A stretch of DNA of 62,060 nucleotides, taken from positions 1-62,060 of the forward strand of contig CACBRY010000002.1 of NCBI GenBank assembly GCA_902541825.1. Direction: 5' to 3'. Numbering within the stretch: position 1 is the first letter of the stretch; each line of letters begins with the position of its first letter. Below are positions 26,010-36,597 of the stretch, one piece after another. The position numbers and the translations under genes were made by a program. Under the pieces are notes generated by a model. The model was not told where the DNA came from and ran no database searches. It saw only the letters and a list, made by a program, of their open reading frames with translations. This DNA is from an uncultured Pelagibacteraceae bacterium. GTDB taxonomy: Bacteria > Pseudomonadota > Alphaproteobacteria > Pelagibacterales > Pelagibacteraceae.

Positions 26010-27440
26010 TTGGGAGGCAATATTAATAATTCCGTCAATACAGTATTGAATAAGCACAACAGCGTCTTGCAAATGTATGTAAAGACCAGGAGTATTAATT
26101 ATGATTTCCATAAAGGTTTAAATTATCAAAAAAAAAGTGTAATTCCAAATACAAAAATGTTTTTTAGACAAAAAAAAATTGAGCCAAACAAAGAAAACAT
26201 AGCCTTAAATGAAGATTTAGCAATTATTACAAAAATGAATCAAGAGTTTGCAACATCTCTTGATTTAAAAGAAACTTTACAGACTGCTCTCGAAGTAATT
26301 ATAAAAAGAATCGATGCGCAGGCTGCAAATATTTTTTTAATTGATGAAAAGAAACAAGTTTTTCAATGTATCGCTTCGAAATATCAATCGTATCTAGATG
26401 AATATGAAATACCTTTAACACAAGGTGTAATGGGTAAAGCAGTTTTACAAAAAAAATGTATAAGAGTTGGAAACGTTCGAAAAGATGTAAGAGAAATTGC
26501 AGAATTTTATTTTGATTTAGATAACAAAACAAATTTTACAACATATTCTGTTTTATGTTCACCACTCATTGCAGCAAATGAATGTATTGGAGTAATTCAT
26601 TGCTTAAATAAAAAAAGTAATTCAAAATTATTTGAGGAGAGTGATAGAAAATTATTAGAAACTTTATCAGCACCTGCAGCATTAGCAATTAGAAATGCAA
26701 AGATGGCAAAAGAACTCGTTGATAAAAATAGAATTCAAAAAGAAATAGAGATTGTAGGTGAAATACAAAAAACTTTATTATCAAAAAACAAAAAAGAAAA
26801 TTTTCCTATTGCTGGAATAAATATTCCGGCAAAGATTGTATCAGGAGACTTCTATAATTTTTCTGACTTAGGAGATGGAAAGTTTGGTTTTGGTGTTGCA
26901 GATGTTTCTGGTAAAGGAATTAAATCTTCTTTGTTGATGTCTAAAGCATCAAGTTTGTATAGATGTCTTAGTAAAACAATTTATTCTGCATCTGACTTGC
27001 TAGATCTTTTAAATAAAGAAATATGTGAAACAACTTCACGTGGGATGTTTGTAACAATGTTAATTGGAATTTATGATAGCAAAAAAAATGAATTACTTTT
27101 ATCAAATGCTGGTCACGAACCTCCACTTATCTTTTCTAGGGATGGAAAATTTTCTAATCATACAGAAGCAGGACCACCTTTAGGTATAATGTCAAAAATA
27201 AAATATAAAGAGACAAAAATTAACTTTGCAAACAGCTCAATGTATGTTTTCACTGATGGAATTACTGAAATTAAAGATCCAAATGGAGAAATGTTAGGTG
27301 CAGATGGTTTTCAAAATTATATTATTAAACATAAAGACAAACCAAATCATGAAAGATTAAAAATAATTGTTGAAGATATAATTAAATCAGGAAAAATTCA
27401 GAAAGATGATCTAACAATTCTTGTTGTGGATGGAAATTAG
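26010..27440 (+). CDS. GAF-domain PP2C (RsbU/SpoIIE-type) serine phosphatase
   Basis: Up to 476 aa. A GAF sensor domain (about 72-230: AQAANIFLIDE, GVMGKAVLQKK, CSPLIAANECIGVIH) is joined to a SpoIIE-type PP2C domain (about 250-476) with SGDFYNF, ADVSGKGIKSSLLMSKA, NAGHEPPLIF and YVFTDGITE, covering the metal-binding aspartates. In Rsb partner switching such phosphatases dephosphorylate a STAS antagonist. Candidate partners are the kinase and STAS genes at 36181-36896. The start is uncertain: TTG at 26010 is immediately followed by GGGAGG, with later ATGs at 26073 and 26157. The gene is divergent from pilD. Confidence 0.88.
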   Translation: MGGNINNSVNTVLNKHNSVLQMYVKTRSINYDFHKGLNYQKKSVIPNTKMFFRQKKIEPNKENIALNEDLAIITKMNQEFATSLDLKETLQTALEVIIKRIDAQAANIFLIDEKKQVFQCIASKYQSYLDEYEIPLTQGVMGKAVLQKKCIRVGNVRKDVREIAEFYFDLDNKTNFTTYSVLCSPLIAANECIGVIHCLNKKSNSKLFEESDRKLLETLSAPAALAIRNAKMAKELVDKNRIQKEIEIVGEIQKTLLSKNKKENFPIAGINIPAKIVSGDFYNFSDLGDGKFGFGVADVSGKGIKSSLLMSKASSLYRCLSKTIYSASDLLDLLNKEICETTSRGMFVTMLIGIYDSKKNELLLSNAGHEPPLIFSRDGKFSNHTEAGPPLGIMSKIKYKETKINFANSSMYVFTDGITEIKDPNGEMLGADGFQNYIIKHKDKPNHERLKIIVEDIIKSGKIQKDDLTILVVDGN

Positions 27441-27442
27441 TA

Positions 27443-27523
27443 GAAATGTTAGGTGTAGATAGTTTTCAAAATTAAATTATTAAACATAAAGACAAACCAA
27501 ATCATAAAAAATTAAAAATAATT
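27443..27523 (+). pseudogene. Decayed partial duplicate of the preceding phosphatase gene
   Basis: An 81-nt stretch starting 3 nt after the phosphatase stop repeats 27288-27368, inside the same gene, at an offset of 155 nt with five substitutions. Four of the five are GC-to-AT and one is T-to-A. In the original reading frame the copy soon hits a TAA (ENQ-like ...SFQN*), so it cannot encode a protein. It is a remnant of a short tandem duplication rather than a separate gene. Confidence 0.85.
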
Positions 27524-27750
27524 TTAAAAAAAATAATTTAAACACGGAAAAGGCAGAAAGATTGCTAAAAAATTATTATTTTGATAAAAATTAATTGAAA
27601 TTCAGAAAAAATTTAAAAATTCACCTCAAATTAGAAAAAAAACATCAATTTTGAATTGTATTTTTAAGTTTTTTTGGATTTAATCTTAAAATTTCATTTT
27701 AAAGGTGTGTTCCCATGATAAAAGGTATAAAAAATTTTATCTTTTTTTTT

Positions 27751-28066
27751 CTCTAACACAAAAAAATTTTACTCTAACACAAAAAAAATAAAAATTAGAA
27801 AAAATTAGAAAAATGTTGTAAATACAAGCTTTTTTAAATTTTGTTCAATTTTAATAACTCTAACACAATTCTTTAAAATTTAATTGTGTTAGAGTCGAAT
27901 TCAATAGTCTTAAAATATTTCAAATAATATTTTAAATGTCATTTTAGCGAAAATGGCTAATTTATTAGCTTTTTTGACATTTTAGACAAATTTTTTTAGT
28001 CTTAGGTAAGTTTGTGTTGGACAATATTATATTTTGTGTTAGAGTTTTAGGAAAATTGTGTTAGAG
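27751..28066. repeat. Nested inverted array of CTCTAACACA repeats
   Basis: Three exact forward copies of the 10-mer CTCTAACACA (27751, 27772, 27858) face three exact reverse copies TGTGTTAGAG (27885, 28035, 28057) plus a degenerate one (28013, TGTGTTGG). The outer pairs are spaced 21 and 22 nt, about two helical turns. The inner pair forms a perfect 14-nt inverted repeat, ACTCTAACACAATT / AATTGTGTTAGAGT (27857-27870 and 27882-27895). The block could be a multi-site operator, a MITE-like element with compound terminal repeats, or an invertible segment. The 10-mer was not noticed elsewhere in the window by eye. Confidence 0.88.
27956..28002 (+). promoter_or_regulatory. Candidate pilMN promoter with upstream palindrome
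   Basis: TTGACA (27974-27979) with a 17-nt spacer to TAGTCT (27997-28002) resembles a sigma-70 promoter with a perfect -35 and a weak -10. Just upstream is the palindrome GCTAATTTATTAGC (27956-27969), whose centre would be about 46 nt before the predicted start site, a usual place for an activator. It is enclosed by a wider inverted pair AAATGTCA / TGACATTT (27934-27941, 27975-27982). Transcripts would start around 28009 and carry the reverse-oriented repeats in the leader. Confidence 0.4.
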
Positions 28067-28087: not shown

Positions 28088-30604
28088 ATGGATGATAAAG
28101 AGAAAGAAAAATTTGGTGTCATTATAGACAAACAGAATCAATCTGAGAGTGAACAACCAAAAGTTGAAGAAAAATCTCCAGAAAATAAAAATATCGAGAG
28201 TGAACAACCAAAAGTTGAGGAGCAAGCTCCAGAAAATGAAATTTTAAAGACTGAAAACGAAAATATTGGTGTTTCAGACGTTAAACAAGCTGAAGATGAA
28301 AATAAAACTGAAAACACACCTCAAAATCAAGATCAATTTTCTGATGATGATGCAAATAATAATTTATCCTCGGCTGAACCAACAAATTTAAATGAAAATA
28401 TTAATAATAATGAAAACAATGATGCTGAAAAGATAAATAAAGAGAATAGTAATGAAGAAGAAAAAAAAGATCATCAAGTAATCCATAAAAAAGATGGGAG
28501 ATTACATATTTATGTAAGACAAGATAAGTACAAAGGGGAGCTTAAATCTAAAAATTGGGTCGGAAGAATTTATTTAGATGGTAAACAAAAAATTTTCTCC
28601 TCGGGTACACCAAATTTAGATGATGCAATACCAATTTTAGAAAAATGGTTTGATGATTTACACGCACAAAAAGAAAAAGAACAAAATAACAATGATCAAA
28701 CTGAAAGTAGTGATAAAACAAAAATTGAAAACATACAGTCGGAACAAGTTAAAGAAACTATTTCTCCCAATATTGATACAACAACTTTACAAAATCAAAA
28801 TAATGAAAATTTAAAAAGTAATTTAGAAAATATTTCTACAACTAATCAAAATAATCAAAACGAAGATCAAAAATCAAATGTCACTACAAGTTTATTAGAT
28901 AAATTAAAAAGTATAAAATTAAAAAAACCTGAGTTTGGAAAAAAAGATTCTATAAAATTATCTGGTGGTAAATCAATATCTGATATTAAAAATAAACTTG
29001 GTGGTTTCTTTAAATCTAAAATTGGAAAATCTTCTGTTCAAGGTGAAGAAATTGTTGGAGTAGAACTTACTAATAAAGAAATAAGACTTGCCCAGATAAC
29101 TTCAAACAAAGCAAATCAGTGGATACTCGAAAAATTTTATACTCATAAAGTTGACTTACCTGAAGATGCATCAGTATTAGATAATGCAGATAAAATGGGT
29201 GAGGAATTATCTCTTGCAATACAAAAATCAAAAATTGCAACACCAAACGCTGCAATTGCAATACCAGTTACGAGTGCAATTATAAGAGTCGTAACTGCTC
29301 CATTAATGACAGATGAAGAATTACAAAAAGCAATAGACACAAATTCGTTATGGGAAAACTTGGTTCAACTAACTGATAACTTAGATGATTATTCAATATT
29401 CCATCAAGTGATTAATAAAAACGATAAAGAAAATACAATGGATATTTTATTTGTAGCTTCAAAATTGGCAGATATTAATAATTACACATCTATTATAAAG
29501 AGAAGTAGCTTAAATCCAGTTATAATTGACGTTAAATGTTTTGCACTTAAATCAGCTGTTGACCAAATAAATCAAATTTCAAAAAATGCTGAGGATGCAA
29601 ATTTAACGGCAGTTCTAGAATTTGGATTAGATGAAAATTATTTAATGATATTATATGAAAATAACCCAATAATTACTGACATTTTTATAAGAAACCAAGA
29701 TAGAGAAATTTTACAAAATTCACAAGATCAAGAGGAGAAAGAGGCTTTAGTAAGAAGATTTATTACTCAAGTTAAGCAAGCAGTGCAAGATTTTGAGACA
29801 AAATATGAAAAAAGAATAAGAAATATAAAAGTAGTTTCTGATTTAGTTAATGTAGAAGATTATTTATCTACTTTTAGAAAAAGTATGGCCAATGTTGGCT
29901 TCAATTTATTTGATCCAATAGATGGATTAAAAATTCCACAACAAAATGTTGAATCAACAAACTTACAAAATAGATCTTACTTATCTACAGTAATAGGTCT
30001 TGCTTTTAGAAAATTGGATGTGTTTGGTTATTATAAATTTGTAACAGCAGTAAAAAATATCAACCTTCTTCCTGACAGAGCAGGTATGATAAAACAGAAA
30101 AAAATGAAAGCATTTTCTAAATTTGCTTTCAAAGGAGTAGCAGGAGCTGTTGTTGCAATTTATACTTTATTGTTCGGATTATCATTTTGGCAAATTTATT
30201 CCTACAATTCAAAATTACAAGATTATGATAAAATTGTAAAAGAACATAAATTAAAAGAAAAACAAAAAAAGAAATTTAGTAAAGAGTTAGGTGTAATGAC
30301 TAAAACATTACAACTAAGTAAAACTCTTAAGTCTAACAAAAGTTTAAGTTATAGATACTTGGCACAGATAGCTATGAGTGTACCGAAAAGAGTAAAATTC
30401 AATTCTATACAATATGATGGAAAAAAATCTATTGTTCTTCTAGGCTCTGCTGCAACTGATCAAGATATATTAAAATTAGTAAACAATTTAAATACTCAAA
30501 AGTTAGTACAACAAGCGTCCTTGGGTTCTATGAATTTACCAAAATCCAAAGCTGGGTCTAACACGAAAAAAAGATTTCAAATTTTAGTGCAGGTAAAAGG
30601 ATAA
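28088..30604 (+). CDS. pilM: Fused PilM-PilN pilus inner-membrane protein with long disordered N-terminus
   Basis: 838 aa. Residues 1-130 are acidic, Asn/Glu-rich and likely disordered, with a 17-residue tandem repeat (ESEQPKVEE). Residues about 135-195 form a compact domain (GRLHIYVRQDKYKG ... NWVGRIYLDGKQKIF) of unknown function. After another linker comes a PilM/ASKHA ATPase-like domain (about 319-650, EEIVGVELTNKEIRLAQI). PilN follows: the membrane-proximal peptide NINLLPDRAG (about 657), one TM helix (680-705), and a periplasmic coiled coil with ferredoxin-like fold. PilM is normally cytosolic and binds the PilN INLLP peptide; here both are one chain. pilO follows by 5 nt. Confidence 0.88.
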   Translation: MDDKEKEKFGVIIDKQNQSESEQPKVEEKSPENKNIESEQPKVEEQAPENEILKTENENIGVSDVKQAEDENKTENTPQNQDQFSDDDANNNLSSAEPTNLNENINNNENNDAEKINKENSNEEEKKDHQVIHKKDGRLHIYVRQDKYKGELKSKNWVGRIYLDGKQKIFSSGTPNLDDAIPILEKWFDDLHAQKEKEQNNNDQTESSDKTKIENIQSEQVKETISPNIDTTTLQNQNNENLKSNLENISTTNQNNQNEDQKSNVTTSLLDKLKSIKLKKPEFGKKDSIKLSGGKSISDIKNKLGGFFKSKIGKSSVQGEEIVGVELTNKEIRLAQITSNKANQWILEKFYTHKVDLPEDASVLDNADKMGEELSLAIQKSKIATPNAAIAIPVTSAIIRVVTAPLMTDEELQKAIDTNSLWENLVQLTDNLDDYSIFHQVINKNDKENTMDILFVASKLADINNYTSIIKRSSLNPVIIDVKCFALKSAVDQINQISKNAEDANLTAVLEFGLDENYLMILYENNPIITDIFIRNQDREILQNSQDQEEKEALVRRFITQVKQAVQDFETKYEKRIRNIKVVSDLVNVEDYLSTFRKSMANVGFNLFDPIDGLKIPQQNVESTNLQNRSYLSTVIGLAFRKLDVFGYYKFVTAVKNINLLPDRAGMIKQKKMKAFSKFAFKGVAGAVVAIYTLLFGLSFWQIYSYNSKLQDYDKIVKEHKLKEKQKKKFSKELGVMTKTLQLSKTLKSNKSLSYRYLAQIAMSVPKRVKFNSIQYDGKKSIVLLGSAATDQDILKLVNNLNTQKLVQQASLGSMNLPKSKAGSNTKKRFQILVQVKG
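28145..28246 (+). repeat. Two 51-nt tandem repeats in the pilMN N-terminal coding region
   Basis: Two consecutive 51-nt (17-codon) units beginning GAGAGTGAACAACCAAAAG encode ESEQPKVEE[K/Q][S/A]PENxxx twice in the disordered acidic N-terminus of the PilM-PilN fusion. The unit is in frame, so slippage would change tail length without breaking the gene. Confidence 0.8.
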
Positions 30605-30609
30605 ATTTT

Positions 30610-31290
30610 ATGGATTTAAAAAATATCGATTTAAAAAATATCAAAATTGATGATCTTGTATCGAAAATTAAGACTATTGAAAAAAAAGTATTAATTAAAA
30701 TTGGTATCGGTGTTGGTTCAGTTGTTGTTTTCTTAATTATTTATTATGCCATTTTAAGTCCAATAGTTGAAAAAAAGAAAATTCAACTAGAGGATATGAA
30801 TGTAAAAAAAACAGAGATTACAAAATTTAATAATGATATCGTATCAATTAAGAAGAAGATTAAAAAAGTAAAACCAGAATACGAAAATTACTCAACACTT
30901 TTTCATTCAAAAGCAGAGGTTGAGGGTCTTTATCAAACTTTAAGTGAATATGCTTCAATAAACGGATTAATTATTTCCAAAATAAATAAGGGCACCCCTT
31001 CAGCTGTTTCTAAAAGCTCTTTATCAAAATCAAAAAAGAAAAAGAAAAAAAAGAAATCGAAAAAAAAACAGACACAGAAAAAAAGTATCGCTTATTACAG
31101 GATACCGGTTAGTTATGAAATTAAAGGCAATTTCCTTGGATATATTAAGTTTAAAAGACAAGTCTCCCTTTCTCAAAAGATGTTAAACTTTGACAAAGAA
31201 TCCATAAAAGTGCTAAAAGGGGATACAACTAACGCGATAGTTGTAACAGGAGTATTAACAATAGTGGGGTTACCAGATGAGTTTTTTTAG
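30610..31290 (+). CDS. pilO: Type IV pilus alignment protein PilO with a lysine tract
   Basis: 226 aa. One TM helix (about 32-50) followed by a coiled coil (54-95) and a periplasmic ferredoxin-like domain, the standard PilO plan. It pairs with PilN and binds PilP. Between the coiled coil/first strand region and the final strands is an inserted basic run, SKSKKKKKKKKSKKK (about 139-153), encoded by A-rich DNA. Such a tract is not part of the family core. It starts 5 nt after pilMN and overlaps pilP by 14 nt. Confidence 0.85.
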   Translation: MDLKNIDLKNIKIDDLVSKIKTIEKKVLIKIGIGVGSVVVFLIIYYAILSPIVEKKKIQLEDMNVKKTEITKFNNDIVSIKKKIKKVKPEYENYSTLFHSKAEVEGLYQTLSEYASINGLIISKINKGTPSAVSKSSLSKSKKKKKKKKSKKKQTQKKSIAYYRIPVSYEIKGNFLGYIKFKRQVSLSQKMLNFDKESIKVLKGDTTNAIVVTGVLTIVGLPDEFF

Positions 31291-31672
31291 AATTGCTCTT
31301 TTGACTTTATTATTAATGTCTTTTCCCAAAATTGGCTTGGCTGATAGTCATGAAGAACCATTGCCTTTAAATGACCCATTTGCGGGTGATGATGGAACCG
31401 CCAGCTCAATAGTATCGGATGTTACTCAAAAAGAGGAATTAATGAATTTGAGTAAATATAAATTAGTAGGAGTTTTTAACGGCTCTATAAAATCGTTTGC
31501 AACTTTTGTGGATGAGTCAGGAGAATTTATAACTCTTGAAGAGCAAGAAGAATTATCAAATGGATTAAAATTAGTTGAGGTAAATATTAAAGAGGCAATA
31601 TTTCAAAAAGGTGTAGACAATTTTATATCCCTTAACTTTAAAAACCAAATTAGAGAAAAAAATGAATTTTAA
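31277..31672 (+). CDS. pilP: Type IV pilus assembly protein PilP
   Basis: 131 aa. Signal peptide (about 1-22, ends GLA-DS), a Pro/Asp-rich linker (PLPLNDPFAGDD) and a small beta domain (KYKLVGVFNGSIKSFATFVDESGEF) matching the HR domain of PilP that binds the secretin. It lacks the lipobox cysteine seen in many PilP proteins. Overlaps pilO upstream and pilQ downstream (11 nt). The identification rests strongly on its place between pilO and pilQ as well as the KLVGV...A pattern. Confidence 0.85.
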   Translation: MSFFRIALLTLLLMSFPKIGLADSHEEPLPLNDPFAGDDGTASSIVSDVTQKEELMNLSKYKLVGVFNGSIKSFATFVDESGEFITLEEQEELSNGLKLVEVNIKEAIFQKGVDNFISLNFKNQIREKNEF

Positions 31673-33188
31673 ATTTATTACACCCACAATTTTATTATTA
31701 ATTTTTTTAACTGGATGTACTACAGATGGTAAATTTAAAAAGGGTGGATTTAAACATAACACACCACTAATAAAAGAAGATATAAGAATAACAGGAAAAG
31801 AAACTGTTGATAAAACAGTAGAACTAGGACCTCAACCTATCGAGGGTGATGTAATAAAACTTGGAAAGAGAAAACAAATATCTTCTCAACAAAAAACAAA
31901 TTACCTATTAATTCCTGAAAGTTATAAATCCTTAAAACAAAACGTATCATTTAAGTTTCAAAACTTAGATTACAAAGAGGCCATGAATCTTATGGCTCAG
32001 GCAGGGAATATTAACATTTTAGTTGGTGAGGAAGTTGCAGGGTCAATAAACGCACAATTAGTCGATGTTCCATGGGACAAAGCTTTTAATGCAATATTAG
32101 ATTTAAAAAATTTTGCTGCTGACTTTGATGTTTCAAGTAATTTAATTAGAGTTCATTCCCCAGCTAATTTGACAGCACAGGAAAGTACTAAATCAGCTCG
32201 AGCTTCAGCAGTTAAGAAAAAAGTAGAACTAGAGGACTCGGTTGAACCAATAATTTCAGAGATATTTAGACTTTATTATATAACTCCAGCGGAAGCAAAA
32301 AAAACTTTAACAGAACTTTTCGCATCAATTGATGATAATTTTTCACCAATCAAAATTACCGAAGAAAAAACAACAAGATCTGTTATTGTAAGAGGAAAAG
32401 AAACTGATTTAGATATTGTTGATAAAATTATTAAAGAAATAGATGTAAGAACTAAACAAGTTTTAATAGAGGCATTTATTGTTGAGGCCAATTCTGATTT
32501 TGAAAGAGCATTAGGCACAAGACTTGGCGGATACTATAATAGACAAGGAAGAATTATCGGAGGTGTACAAAATGCAAGTACTGGTGATGGACCAGCTAAT
32601 GCAGGTACAGCAGTTCTTGGTGCAGCTACTGATAGTCTCACAGATTTTTCTGCTGCAGGAGCTACTAGTGGTATTGGTATTTTAAAAAAGACGGGTTCAG
32701 CAGTACTTAAAGCAGAGATTACTGCTCTAGAGACGCAAGGTTTAGGCAAAACAATTTCAAATCCAAAAGTATTCACTTTAGATAATCAAGTTGCAACAAT
32801 TACTCAAGGTGAGGAAATACCTTATGCATCTAGCGGTGATGGGGGAACTGATACACAATTTAAAGAGGCAGCTTTAAAAATGACAGTTACGCCAAGTATA
32901 ATTGGAGATGGAAATGTACTCTTAACTATACAGGTTAATAATGACACTCCAAACAGATCAAATGCAGGTGATCCCGCTATTAACAAAATGGAAATAAGCA
33001 CCAAATTACTGGTAGCTGACGGTGATATTGTCGTAATCGGTGGTATCAAAAAAAATTCAACAACTAATAGTAAACAACAATTACCAGGCGTTGGTGATAC
33101 CCCGGTTTTAGGAAATTTGTTTAAAGGAAAATCAAAAACTGATAATTTAGACGAGTTATTAGTATTTATAGCACCGAGAGTTTTATAA
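31662..33188 (+). CDS. pilQ: Type IV pilus secretin PilQ (lipoprotein form)
   Basis: 508 aa. A lipoprotein signal ends in FLTGC (Cys19). An STN/N0 domain (about 86-150, FKFQNLDYKEAMNLMAQAG), an N1-type domain (190-270) and the secretin pore domain (270-508) follow, with VLIEAFIVEAN, a glycine-rich gate region, VTPSIIGDG, LLVADGDIVVIGGI and LPGVGDTPVLGNLFKG. It forms the outer-membrane channel for the pilus. It is shorter than common PilQ because no AMIN domains are visible. pilB begins 1 nt after its stop. Confidence 0.94.
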   Translation: MNFKFITPTILLLIFLTGCTTDGKFKKGGFKHNTPLIKEDIRITGKETVDKTVELGPQPIEGDVIKLGKRKQISSQQKTNYLLIPESYKSLKQNVSFKFQNLDYKEAMNLMAQAGNINILVGEEVAGSINAQLVDVPWDKAFNAILDLKNFAADFDVSSNLIRVHSPANLTAQESTKSARASAVKKKVELEDSVEPIISEIFRLYYITPAEAKKTLTELFASIDDNFSPIKITEEKTTRSVIVRGKETDLDIVDKIIKEIDVRTKQVLIEAFIVEANSDFERALGTRLGGYYNRQGRIIGGVQNASTGDGPANAGTAVLGAATDSLTDFSAAGATSGIGILKKTGSAVLKAEITALETQGLGKTISNPKVFTLDNQVATITQGEEIPYASSGDGGTDTQFKEAALKMTVTPSIIGDGNVLLTIQVNNDTPNRSNAGDPAINKMEISTKLLVADGDIVVIGGIKKNSTTNSKQQLPGVGDTPVLGNLFKGKSKTDNLDELLVFIAPRVL

Positions 33189-33189
33189 T

Positions 33190-34941
33190 ATGTTGAAGAT
33201 AAGTCGAGAAAGCGAAATAAATCTTATAAATGTACTTATAGATAACGATATTATCTCAGGCAAAGACTTAGTTAATATAAAAAAAATTAGCACCGAAGGT
33301 AATAAGTCTCAAATTGATGCCGTCTTTGAATTAAAACTTACTGATGAAAAGCAAATAGTAGATGTGTTAGTTAAAGAGCAAAGTTTAGACATTGTCGATT
33401 TGTCAAAACATGCAATTACAGATGAAATTAAATCTGTGCTTCCTTCAAATTATATCAATGTAAATTTTGTGGCGCCATTTAAAGTTGAGGGCAATACTCT
33501 GCACATTGCAATATCAGACAGTTCAAAACTTGGTTTGATGAGAAATTTAAAAGCTATCACTAAAAAAAATATTGAACTACATGCAGCAAAAGTTTCAGAA
33601 ATATCAAAGTTTATAGATAAGCTTTTAAGTGAGAGTGGTGATGTAACAACAGAAACTATACGAAAAGACAATAGAGAAAAAACTAAAACTTTTGACTCCG
33701 AACTAGGTGAAGCGGGGGAAGTTTTAGATAAAAAACCAGAAGAAGATATTGAAGCAATAGAAAATGAGTCAGAAGTTATAAAATTTAGTACAGCTGTTGT
33801 TGCAGAGGCAATTAAACTAGGTGTTAGTGATATTCACATTGAGCCTTATAGATTCTCATCAAGAGTAAGATATAGATTAGATGGTATGTTACAAGAACAG
33901 GATCAGTATCAAAAATTTTTACACGATAATTATGGTGCAGTTGTTACTCGATTTAAAATAATGGGTAAATTAGATATCGCAGAAAGAAGATTGCCACAAG
34001 ATGGAGCAATCAATTTTAAAATTGAAGGTAAAGTTGTAGATTTACGTCTATCTATTTTGCCTACTGCAAATAATGAGAGAATTGTAATGCGTATCTTAAA
34101 TAAAGATGCAGGAGATATAACTTTAGAACAATTAAATTTTGATGACTCCGACTTAAAAAATCTTAGAAAAGCAATTCATAGCACACAAGGTTTAGTTCTT
34201 GTAACCGGTCCAACAGGATCAGGAAAAACTACAACCTTATACAGTATTTTAAAAGAAGTAAGCAAACCACATTTAAATATTTTAACTGCAGAGGATCCAG
34301 TTGAATACGAGCTTGATGGTGTTGGACAAGTTCAAATTAAAGATGATATTGGATTAAATTTCGCAGCTGCCCTAAGATCATTTTTACGTCAAGATCCTGA
34401 GATTATTCTGGTTGGTGAGATGAGAGATAAAGAGACAGTTGATATTGGTTTAAAGGCTGCTCTAACGGGCCACCTTGTTTTTAGTACTCTTCACACTAAT
34501 GATGCACCTAGTACTATTACAAGATTACAAAATATGGGTACACCAGATTATTTAATAAGTGCAGCTTGTACTTTGGTATTAGCGCAAAGGTTAGCAAGAA
34601 AATCATGCAAAGACTGTAGGGTACCTGATGAAGATGTGACGCCAAAAGTTTTAACAGATCTTGGTTTCTCACCTGAGTTGGCATCAAGAGTAAAAGCACA
34701 AAAAGGTAAAGGATGTCCTAAATGTAAAGATACAGGATTTAAGGGAAGAATGGGTATCTATGAGATTTTAAATGTAACAAAACCAATCAAAGAAGCAATT
34801 TTAAAGAAAGCAACTACTCCAGAGTTAAAAGAAATCGCTACAAAAGAGGGTTTTCAAACTATGGCTGACATGGGTAGAAAAATGATTGCAGCTGGAGATT
34901 TAAACTTTAGAGAGTTTGAACGAGTGCTTTCAACTTCATAA
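33190..34941 (+). CDS. pilB: Type IV pilus extension ATPase PilB
   Basis: 583 aa. N-terminal MshEN/GspE-N domain (about 1-155), then the ATPase core with Walker A GPTGSGKTT, AEDPVEYELDGVGQ, Walker B region QDPEIILVGEMRD and TGHLVFSTLHTND, plus the zinc tetracysteine CKDC ... CPKCKDTG typical of PilB/GspE. It powers pilus polymerisation, opposite to PilT. It sits between pilQ and pilC (7 nt gap), completing the pilMNOPQBC operon. Confidence 0.96.
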   Translation: MLKISRESEINLINVLIDNDIISGKDLVNIKKISTEGNKSQIDAVFELKLTDEKQIVDVLVKEQSLDIVDLSKHAITDEIKSVLPSNYINVNFVAPFKVEGNTLHIAISDSSKLGLMRNLKAITKKNIELHAAKVSEISKFIDKLLSESGDVTTETIRKDNREKTKTFDSELGEAGEVLDKKPEEDIEAIENESEVIKFSTAVVAEAIKLGVSDIHIEPYRFSSRVRYRLDGMLQEQDQYQKFLHDNYGAVVTRFKIMGKLDIAERRLPQDGAINFKIEGKVVDLRLSILPTANNERIVMRILNKDAGDITLEQLNFDDSDLKNLRKAIHSTQGLVLVTGPTGSGKTTTLYSILKEVSKPHLNILTAEDPVEYELDGVGQVQIKDDIGLNFAAALRSFLRQDPEIILVGEMRDKETVDIGLKAALTGHLVFSTLHTNDAPSTITRLQNMGTPDYLISAACTLVLAQRLARKSCKDCRVPDEDVTPKVLTDLGFSPELASRVKAQKGKGCPKCKDTGFKGRMGIYEILNVTKPIKEAILKKATTPELKEIATKEGFQTMADMGRKMIAAGDLNFREFERVLSTS

Positions 34942-34948
34942 TTAGCAA

Positions 34949-36184
34949 ATGGAATCATACACATATAAAGGAATTTCAGCTGGTAAGTACATAGAGGGCG
35001 AAATTGAGGCTTTAAATCAAGACGAGGCTTCTCACAAACTAAAAGAACAAAAAATAATTATAACTAATTTAACAAGAGGTAAGAAAAAAAAAGACGGCAC
35101 AAAAGATAAGCCTAAAGGCAAAGGCTTTAGCTTATTTAAAAAGAAGGTAAAAAACGAGGACTTGGTTGTTTTTTCAAAGCAATTTGCAACCATGGTAAAG
35201 GCTGGACTTCCAATTTTGAATGTACTTGAAATGCTAAGAGATCAAGTAGAAAACCCAGCGATGAGGGATGTGGTAGAAGATATTAGAAAAAGCCTAGAGG
35301 GAGGTGTTTCGTTATCAAAATCATTCGAAAAATATCCTGATCTATTCGATAACGTATATGTAAATTTAGTTAAAGCTGGTGAGGCCAGCGGTAAACTAGA
35401 TGTTTTTCTTTTAAAAATCGTCGATGCATTAGAGAAAAGAGAAAAAATAAAGAAGAAGATTAAAAGTGCCTTAATGTATCCAAGCATAATGTTTACAGTT
35501 GCTATAGTAGTTAGTGCATTTATGTTGATCAAAGTGGTACCTGTATTTGCAAAAATGTATGACGGAATGGGTATTGCTTTACCCACACCTACAGCAGTTA
35601 TTCTAGGTATGAGTGATTTTTTAAGGGGAACAGGCGGGCTAGTAATGCTTATCTCTATTATTTCTTTCGTAGTGGCTTTTAAATACTTAACAACTAAAAA
35701 TGCAGCAATACGATACAAATGGCATAGACAAGTTTTACGACTGCCAGTGTTTGGTGATTTAATTTTAAAATCTTTGATTGCAAGAATTTCTTTAATACTA
35801 GGGAATTTAAGTGCAGCAGGTGTCAACTTATTAGAAAGCTTAGATATCGCAAAGTCAGTCAGTAACAACGTAGTTGTGACAGAGGCAATTGACAATGTTA
35901 AGAAAGGAGTTTTTTCTGGAGAAACTTTAACTAAACTTTTTTTAAAAGAACCTTTGTTCCCACCTACTTTCAGTCAATTAATATCGGTTGGTGAACAAAC
36001 TGGTCAACTTGATGAAATGTTTAATTCTGTTGCTATGTATTATGAAGAAGAATTCGATGGGGCAGTAGATAACATGTCTAGTTTAATTGAACCTATAATG
36101 ATTGTATTTATGGGTTTAATGATCGGCGGTTTAATGATCGCAATGTACTCACCAATATTCAATGTTGGTGCATTAATAAATTAA
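34949..36184 (+). CDS. pilC: Type IV pilus inner-membrane platform PilC
   Basis: 411 aa GspF-family protein with two homologous cytoplasmic domains (about 65-190 and 270-380) and three TM helices. FSKQFATMVKAGLPILNVLEML and LARISLILGNLSAAGVNLLESL-like segments are the repeat signatures. It transmits PilB/PilT motion to pilin subunits. The N-terminal about 65 residues contain a basic linker (RGKKKKDGTKDKPKGKG). Its stop overlaps the stop of the convergent kinase gene by 4 nt. Confidence 0.95.
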   Translation: MESYTYKGISAGKYIEGEIEALNQDEASHKLKEQKIIITNLTRGKKKKDGTKDKPKGKGFSLFKKKVKNEDLVVFSKQFATMVKAGLPILNVLEMLRDQVENPAMRDVVEDIRKSLEGGVSLSKSFEKYPDLFDNVYVNLVKAGEASGKLDVFLLKIVDALEKREKIKKKIKSALMYPSIMFTVAIVVSAFMLIKVVPVFAKMYDGMGIALPTPTAVILGMSDFLRGTGGLVMLISIISFVVAFKYLTTKNAAIRYKWHRQVLRLPVFGDLILKSLIARISLILGNLSAAGVNLLESLDIAKSVSNNVVVTEAIDNVKKGVFSGETLTKLFLKEPLFPPTFSQLISVGEQTGQLDEMFNSVAMYYEEEFDGAVDNMSSLIEPIMIVFMGLMIGGLMIAMYSPIFNVGALIN

Positions 36185-36597
36185 TTTATTTTTTTTGTTA
36201 ATACTAAGTGGTTAACCCAACCCTTTTTATCTTTTTTAAATACAGCTGCATCCATAATTTGCTTAATAAAAAAAGTTCCTAAGCCCCCCGGTTTAATATC
36301 ATCTAGTTTTCTATGTTGTACATTTCCAGGAACAACAGCTTTACCTTTATCAAAAAAACCTATTTCTAATTCTGAGTCTTTCATTGAAATTTTAATTTGC
36401 ATTCTGTCAGTTGTGTTATCCACACCTTTATAGCCATGCTTAACTATATTTTGTGCCGCCTCTGCAATTGCTAAAACTAATTCGTCTTTTAACTCTTGTT
36501 CAAGTTTTAATTTTTCAAATACTTCTCGAGAAAAAACTCTCACTTCTTTTAAACTTGCGGTGCTGACTAAAAAATCTTTAGACTCTTCTATATTCAT
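36181..36597 (-). CDS. Anti-sigma-factor-type serine kinase (RsbW-like, HATPase_c)
   Basis: 138 aa GHKL kinase. N-box ELVLAIAEAAQNIVKHGY (Glu46, Asn50), G1 box FFDKGKAVVP (Asp83, Gly85) and G2 box GGLGTFFI (104-111). In Rsb/SpoIIA partner switching this kinase phosphorylates a STAS protein and sequesters a target, often a sigma factor. Start abuts the STAS gene stop (1-nt overlap), so both form a two-gene unit on the minus strand between pilC and pilA. The target protein is not evident in the window. Confidence 0.92.
   Translation of the reverse strand: MNIEESKDFLVSTASLKEVRVFSREVFEKLKLEQELKDELVLAIAEAAQNIVKHGYKGVDNTTDRMQIKISMKDSELEIGFFDKGKAVVPGNVQHRKLDDIKPGGLGTFFIKQIMDAAVFKKDKKGWVNHLVLTKKIN

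Follow-up and report, generated by a model that had tools for sequence, protein, structure and literature searches.

The sequence TTGTGTTAGAG occurs in six exact copies and a seventh near-copy upstream of a pilM-pilN fusion gene of a SAR11 bacterium (Pelagibacteraceae), and we consider it probable, judging from sequence comparisons, that an island in the encoded protein (PilMN) is a captured integrase arm-binding domain, that the array consists of its arm-type sites, and that PilMN binds the array and controls its own operon. What the sequences show is that the array is conserved, that its sites are helically phased and restricted to one locus, that array and domain strictly co-occur, that the domain is homologous to the N-terminus of an integrase and that like sites are present at integrase genes. 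Taken as they stand, the sequences suggest that a pilus apparatus may directly control its own gene. The host of the window (the whole 62,060-nt stretch of DNA that was analysed) is a SAR11 bacterium: a domain-alignment scan of GTDB genomes returned almost only Pelagibacteraceae records, the exception being one titled as a Gammaproteobacteria MAG.

The exact 10-mers (CTCTAACACA/TGTGTTAGAG) lie at 27751, 27772 and 27858 in the forward orientation and at 27885, 28035 and 28057 in the reverse one, where an initial annotation had placed six copies, three per orientation. The full forward sites F1 (27751-27761), F2 (27772-27782) and F3 (27858-27868) match TTGTGTTAGAG exactly on the minus strand; F2 lies 21 nt past F1 (a spacing of 20-22 is kept in relatives) and F3 86 nt past F2 (85-88 in 38 pairs). 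On the plus strand, site R1 (27884-27894) bears TTGTGTTAGAG and pairs with F3 as the perfect central 14-nt inverted repeat described previously (27857-27870/27882-27895), and R4 (28034-28044) and R5 (28056-28066) are exact matches, the latter with the pilMN ATG about 22 nt downstream. The outer pairs are indeed spaced 21 and 22 nt. What had been overlooked is a seventh, degenerate copy, R3 (TTGTGTTGGAC, 28012-28022, plus strand), located 22 nt ahead of the 28035 copy; most relatives have TGTGTTAGAC at this site. Because of this copy, the right arm reads as three sites at 22-nt steps.

The impression that the array is too regular for chance was justified, and a chance origin was rejected: all seven matches of the relaxed 9-mer TGTGTTRGA in the window fall inside the array, against 0.97 expected. 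A genome-wide search showed that the 10-mer is neither frequent nor randomly placed, since six of its seven exact copies in the 873-kb assembly belong to the array and one lies elsewhere. All six assembly copies of TTGTGTTAGA are inside the array, and so are all seven copies in the array of the single-contig genome G383 (1.28 Mb). A DNA uptake sequence, for which hundreds of copies would be expected, was rejected on the same counts. The paired-site pattern was present in 46 of the 250 genomes of the genus (most of the compared genomes being incomplete single-cell or metagenome assemblies), and a control with the reversed pattern gave 0 matches. Three interpretations had been offered for the block. 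A MITE-like element or compound transposon end is rejected, as these genomes hold one locus each, with no second copy of the array, and no matching target duplication was found at 27751/28066. An invertible segment is unsupported, the orientation being the same in 39 of 39 non-redundant loci. The conserved and helically phased sites, confined to one locus per genome, agree with an operator to which a regulator binds cooperatively, and the candidate regulator is the N-terminal domain of PilMN.

Three or four genera keep the array ahead of pilMN, and its spacers do not align, even among the same-genus orthologues in which its conservation was checked. Among 80 further loci it was found wherever the upstream DNA was readable, except in L118, where the start codon is misplaced. 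In 39 non-redundant loci the sites are arranged F F F R (R) R R R, apart from minor variations, and the full site is TTGTGTTAGAG; T precedes the search core in 97% and G follows it in 83%, at positions that the searched 9-mer does not include. Same-orientation spacings approximate multiples of 10.7 bp (21/22, 86, 118/128/139/149), and the gaps between same-orientation neighbours in the 39 loci are 20-23, 85-88, 118, 126-130, 138-139 or 148-150 bp; their period lies near 10.7 bp with a vector length of 0.90, obtained from 209 gaps of related loci, which are hence not independent. Between F and R the gap measures 25/26 or 35/36, i.e. values one helical turn apart, with a single exception. The gaps fit a period of about 10.7 bp, therefore indels come as whole helical turns. 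Such phasing is the expected signature of mutually touching proteins on one face of the duplex, to which it points, and it argues against a role as RNA.

An element acting at the RNA level, in which a protein would bind the UGUGUUAGAG repeats of the leader as RNA or as hairpins, is extremely improbable. The leader RNA may include the reverse copies, as was annotated initially, three copies being located between the probable promoter and the ATG, and the predicted fold of the island gave weak dsRBD-like matches in Foldseek (E about 1). However, the leader is not predicted to fold better than shuffled sequences and had no match in Rfam, half of the sites lie upstream in the opposite orientation, and the spacings follow the DNA helix. 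The helical phasing, together with the forward copies, suggests that the site acts as DNA rather than as leader RNA.

Two accessory elements accompany the sites. B1 (27814-27835, plus strand) is degenerate in the window (GTTGTAAATACAAGCTTTTTT), and relatives have GTTGATTTTA 43 bp ahead of F3 and again ahead of R3. B2 (27954-27976, plus strand, GGCTAATTTATTAGCTTTTTT), about 57 bp ahead of R3, corresponds to the second palindrome that had been noticed inside the array. Element B is within one mismatch of WATCAANNNNTTR in 26 of 38 loci, where shuffling expects 10, and is weakly indicated to be an IHF-like site; two HU/IHF-family genes are present in the genome. The probable promoter interval (27980-28012, plus strand) is situated between the two site clusters. 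Anchored alignment of relatives revealed a conserved promoter-like stretch there, TTGACCNANAATGNGCATACAACTT, which is degenerate in the window, where no clear sigma-70 promoter was recognized (five promoter-like sites versus five expected).

The pilM-pilN fusion gene (28088-30604, plus strand) encodes a protein of 838 aa with PF11104 and PF05137 domains and one hydrophobic segment near aa 683-701, in the PilN part. The rest of the pilus cluster (30610-36184, plus strand) comprises pilO, pilP-like, pilQ secretin, pilB-like ATPase and pilC-like genes; Pfam supports pilM, pilN, pilO and the secretin, and pilP, pilB and pilC were assigned by reading the translations. The cluster is flanked by genes for a GAF-SpoIIE phosphatase (26010-27440, plus strand) and an RsbW-like HATPase (36181-36597, minus strand), which suggests that a partner-switching system adjoins it. 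Directly after the GAF-SpoIIE gene, at 27441-27560, there is an apparent decayed partial copy of the 3' end of that gene (compare 27290-27400).

The array was found only with PilMN proteins that have an N-terminal extension: within the genus, proteins of about 570-580 aa lack it and those of 690-840 aa have it. The extension contains a 66-aa island (aa 129-195, 28472-28672, plus strand; predicted beta-beta-beta(-beta)-alpha), which is the putative integrase-type arm-binding domain. The island is 91% identical between loci, compared with 25-28% for its flanking linkers, 82% for PilM and 63% for PilN. Among the 250 genomes of the genus, 48 PilMN proteins and a single integrase contain it. The 46 strict-array genomes all carry the island and belong to these 48; the remaining two carriers (G183 and G244) have a diverged array with another geometry and variant sites, and the array is absent from about 40 genomes with a short PilMN. 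The pattern recurs in other genera (g7, g8 and g9).

In the group of the window, pilMN neighbours a pilD-like peptidase gene and the GAF-SpoIIE phosphatase gene, whereas in the short group, and also in a diverged group that carries the domain, pilM is divergent from pilT. With the same pilT neighbour, the array is present only together with the domain; it therefore follows the domain and not the neighbouring gene. The possibility that the array serves that gene was rejected, as the neighbour varies (pilD/spoIIE versus pilT) and domain and array stay together. On the tree, two changes of state are needed for domain and array, the root being uncertain because the outgroup branch is long. They are best read as probably one gain and one loss, with domain and array moving together. 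As the co-occurrence amounts to only two changes, shared descent accounts for part of it.

Besides PilMN, the only bacterial proteins found with the island were those of 418-423 aa encoded by genomes G154 and G315, which are 69% identical to each other. The G154 protein, the one of the two tested against PF00589, is a phage-type tyrosine integrase (9.8e-8, above the cut-off), and the PilMN islands share 54-58% identity with its N-terminus, so that the island is homologous to the N-terminal part of a genuine tyrosine integrase. A complete tRNA-Leu(CAA) adjoins the downstream side of both integrases and a tRNA-Leu-like 5' part is visible upstream. Both genes have an upstream pair of F-orientation sites 11 bp apart and a downstream pair of R-orientation sites 27 bp apart (consensus TTGTGTWAGAG; P 0.002-0.018 per flank versus dinucleotide shuffles). 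Since like sites flank the integrases, domain and motif are associated in two protein contexts that are unrelated to each other. Candidate arm-type sites are located near the own gene of both integrases and of the domain-PilMN genes with readable upstream DNA.

Arm-binding domains bind accessory sites close to the attachment-site core (PMC8138268). The AlphaFold model of the island (pLDDT 86.4; E3-6 E11-20 E23-35 E38-43 H49-72), the sole source for its arrangement of three beta-strands followed by a helix, predicts a fold that agrees with the published description of such domains (PMC8138268). The N-terminal arm domains of Tn916 Int, lambda Int and IntSXT (Pfam clan CL0081, PMC8138268) are alike in position and in predicted strands plus helix, but the PilMN island matches no Pfam arm model and is joined to PilM in place of the core-binding and catalytic domains. 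With the two SAR11 integrases, on the other hand, it shares direct homology and the same flank motif. The island resembled no known arm-domain profile or solved fold: it had no match in Pfam, any arm-domain model included, and Foldseek returned nothing significant from PDB and BFVD. Its identity as an arm domain therefore rests on homology to two related integrases, and it should be labelled a homologue of the N-terminal domain of the G154/G315 integrases rather than assigned to a Pfam family.

Weak domain matches in other genomes (CaiB-type, SecD and histidine kinase proteins) were judged to be due to chance, and no phage record contained the island domain or the integrase. In marine virus contigs of IMG/VR (L188-L192, e.g. 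L191:3992-4342), small proteins of about 116 aa contain the island domain, 62-68% identical to the integrase version, followed by a C-terminal hydrophobic helix. They may represent a membrane-anchored form of the domain; no array was found near the domain gene on these contigs. In L148 (2200-3960) and in L224 (the G315 counterpart), the integrase gene lies by tRNA-Leu(CAA) and is followed by a serine resolvase-type recombinase gene (Pfam match in L148); a second tRNA-Leu, of which the 5' part is present, lies on the opposite side. This region is apparently an integrative element or a tandem insertion, and the phage collection held no match to it.

The arm pairs of the integrases are inverted about int in the same way (F,F / R,R), and the domain is of integrase origin, so the array could be a relict attachment site or a pair of mobile-element ends, i.e. 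an attP-like remnant of the element that supplied the domain. As an account of the present array this is very improbable, because the array has been kept in three or four genera while its spacers diverged, no tRNA or integrase adjoins it, and PilMN has no catalytic domain. A relict attachment site may well be the origin of the array, but not its present role.

Nor is it likely that the array is the operator of a separate, unlinked regulator, the PilMN domain having another role (e.g. protein-protein contact) and sharing only its descent with the array. The two evolutionary changes spanned by the co-occurrence and the missing Pfam or PDB match of the island leave room for such a regulator, and another protein of the same phylogenetic spread could use the sites. 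On the other hand, the domain corresponds to the N-terminus of integrases that have the same sites, it is far more conserved than the remainder of PilMN, and a regulator of the separate kind would normally act on more than a single target, but each genome has just one array.

The explanation that we prefer is that the block is a cis-acting nucleoprotein site built of arm-type sites. Its likeliest ligand would be the product of the gene downstream, acting through the captured domain, which sits in the disordered N-terminal extension of the PilM-PilN fusion. Several PilMN copies, anchored in the inner membrane through the transmembrane segment of PilN, would occupy the seven phased TTGTGTTAGAG sites in a cooperative manner, perhaps aided at the B elements by a bending protein of the IHF type, and the complex would wrap or loop the region round the pilMNOPQ promoter, most likely repressing it. 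In this way the amount or assembly state of PilMN would feed back on the operon, and the membrane segment, by placing the complex at the inner membrane, could link it to pilus assembly. The DNA binding, the sign of the regulation and the coupling to the state of the pilus are parts of this best explanation that we infer.

A precedent is provided by prophage KplE1, whose integrase IntS binds arm sites overlapping its own promoter and represses it, a layout common among tRNA-linked integrase genes (PMC2951348). As proposed here for PilMN, an arm-binding protein has several arm sites that overlap the promoter of its own gene, and IHF takes part in the recombination reaction of KplE1 (PMC2951348). 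PilMN differs from IntS in that it is a pilus assembly platform and has no recombinase domain, its sites flank no attachment core, and repression by it is putative.

ToxR and CadC are membrane-bound one-component regulators. Like them, PilMN would combine a cytoplasmic DNA-binding domain, putative in its case, with a membrane-anchored protein; unlike them, it has no winged helix, and its remaining part is a structural component of the pilus machine.

In the parC/ParR/ParM system of type II plasmid partition, direct repeats form two clusters round a promoter upstream of an actin-fold gene, and ParM and ParR act on these parC repeats. The PilM family is actin-like as well, and the PilMN locus likewise has two repeat clusters, a promoter interval between them and an actin-fold gene downstream. 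However, it is chromosomal, its repeats are about 21-22 bp, there is no ParR, and a putative DNA-binding domain is fused to the actin-like protein itself. By analogy, the membrane-fused PilMN might serve tethering or segregation, holding the locus at the pilus machine, with regulation being secondary. The membrane anchor and the single site per genome would suit such a device, but we regard it as quite improbable: the array stays with the gene where the latter has changed its genomic position (pilT side versus pilD/spoIIE side), it is far from the single near-exact parS-like site (199 kb vs 378 kb in G383, 76 kb vs 345 kb in G288), and array-less relatives do without it.

A broader claim, that a type IV pilus platform protein became a sequence-specific, membrane-anchored DNA binder through a captured integrase arm domain and keeps its operon where the pilus is assembled, seems rather unlikely. 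If true, gene position, expression and machine assembly would be physically coupled. In the open-access literature that was searched, no report was found of a PilM DNA-binding domain or of this array, nor of any structural component of a pilus that has a sequence-specific DNA-binding domain of its own and the matching array beside the gene encoding it. SAR11 bacteria, among the most abundant groups of marine bacteria, have few regulators and are hard to manipulate; PilMN and its array would offer a directly testable regulator-target pair in this group. They would likewise illustrate clearly how the arm domain of an integrase was domesticated for gene control, most of the site motif being retained (TGTGTWAGA).

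In some relatives (L153, L154, L111 and G288:C1:75815-76595), the array upstream of pilMN is duplicated or extended and reaches up to about 900 bp, which means that it can expand. A diverged group (L146, L147 and L226-L231) has another array geometry, fixed in most of its members, and a recurrent variant site, TTGTGTTATAA, which together might constitute a natural test case for the co-evolution of domain and site.
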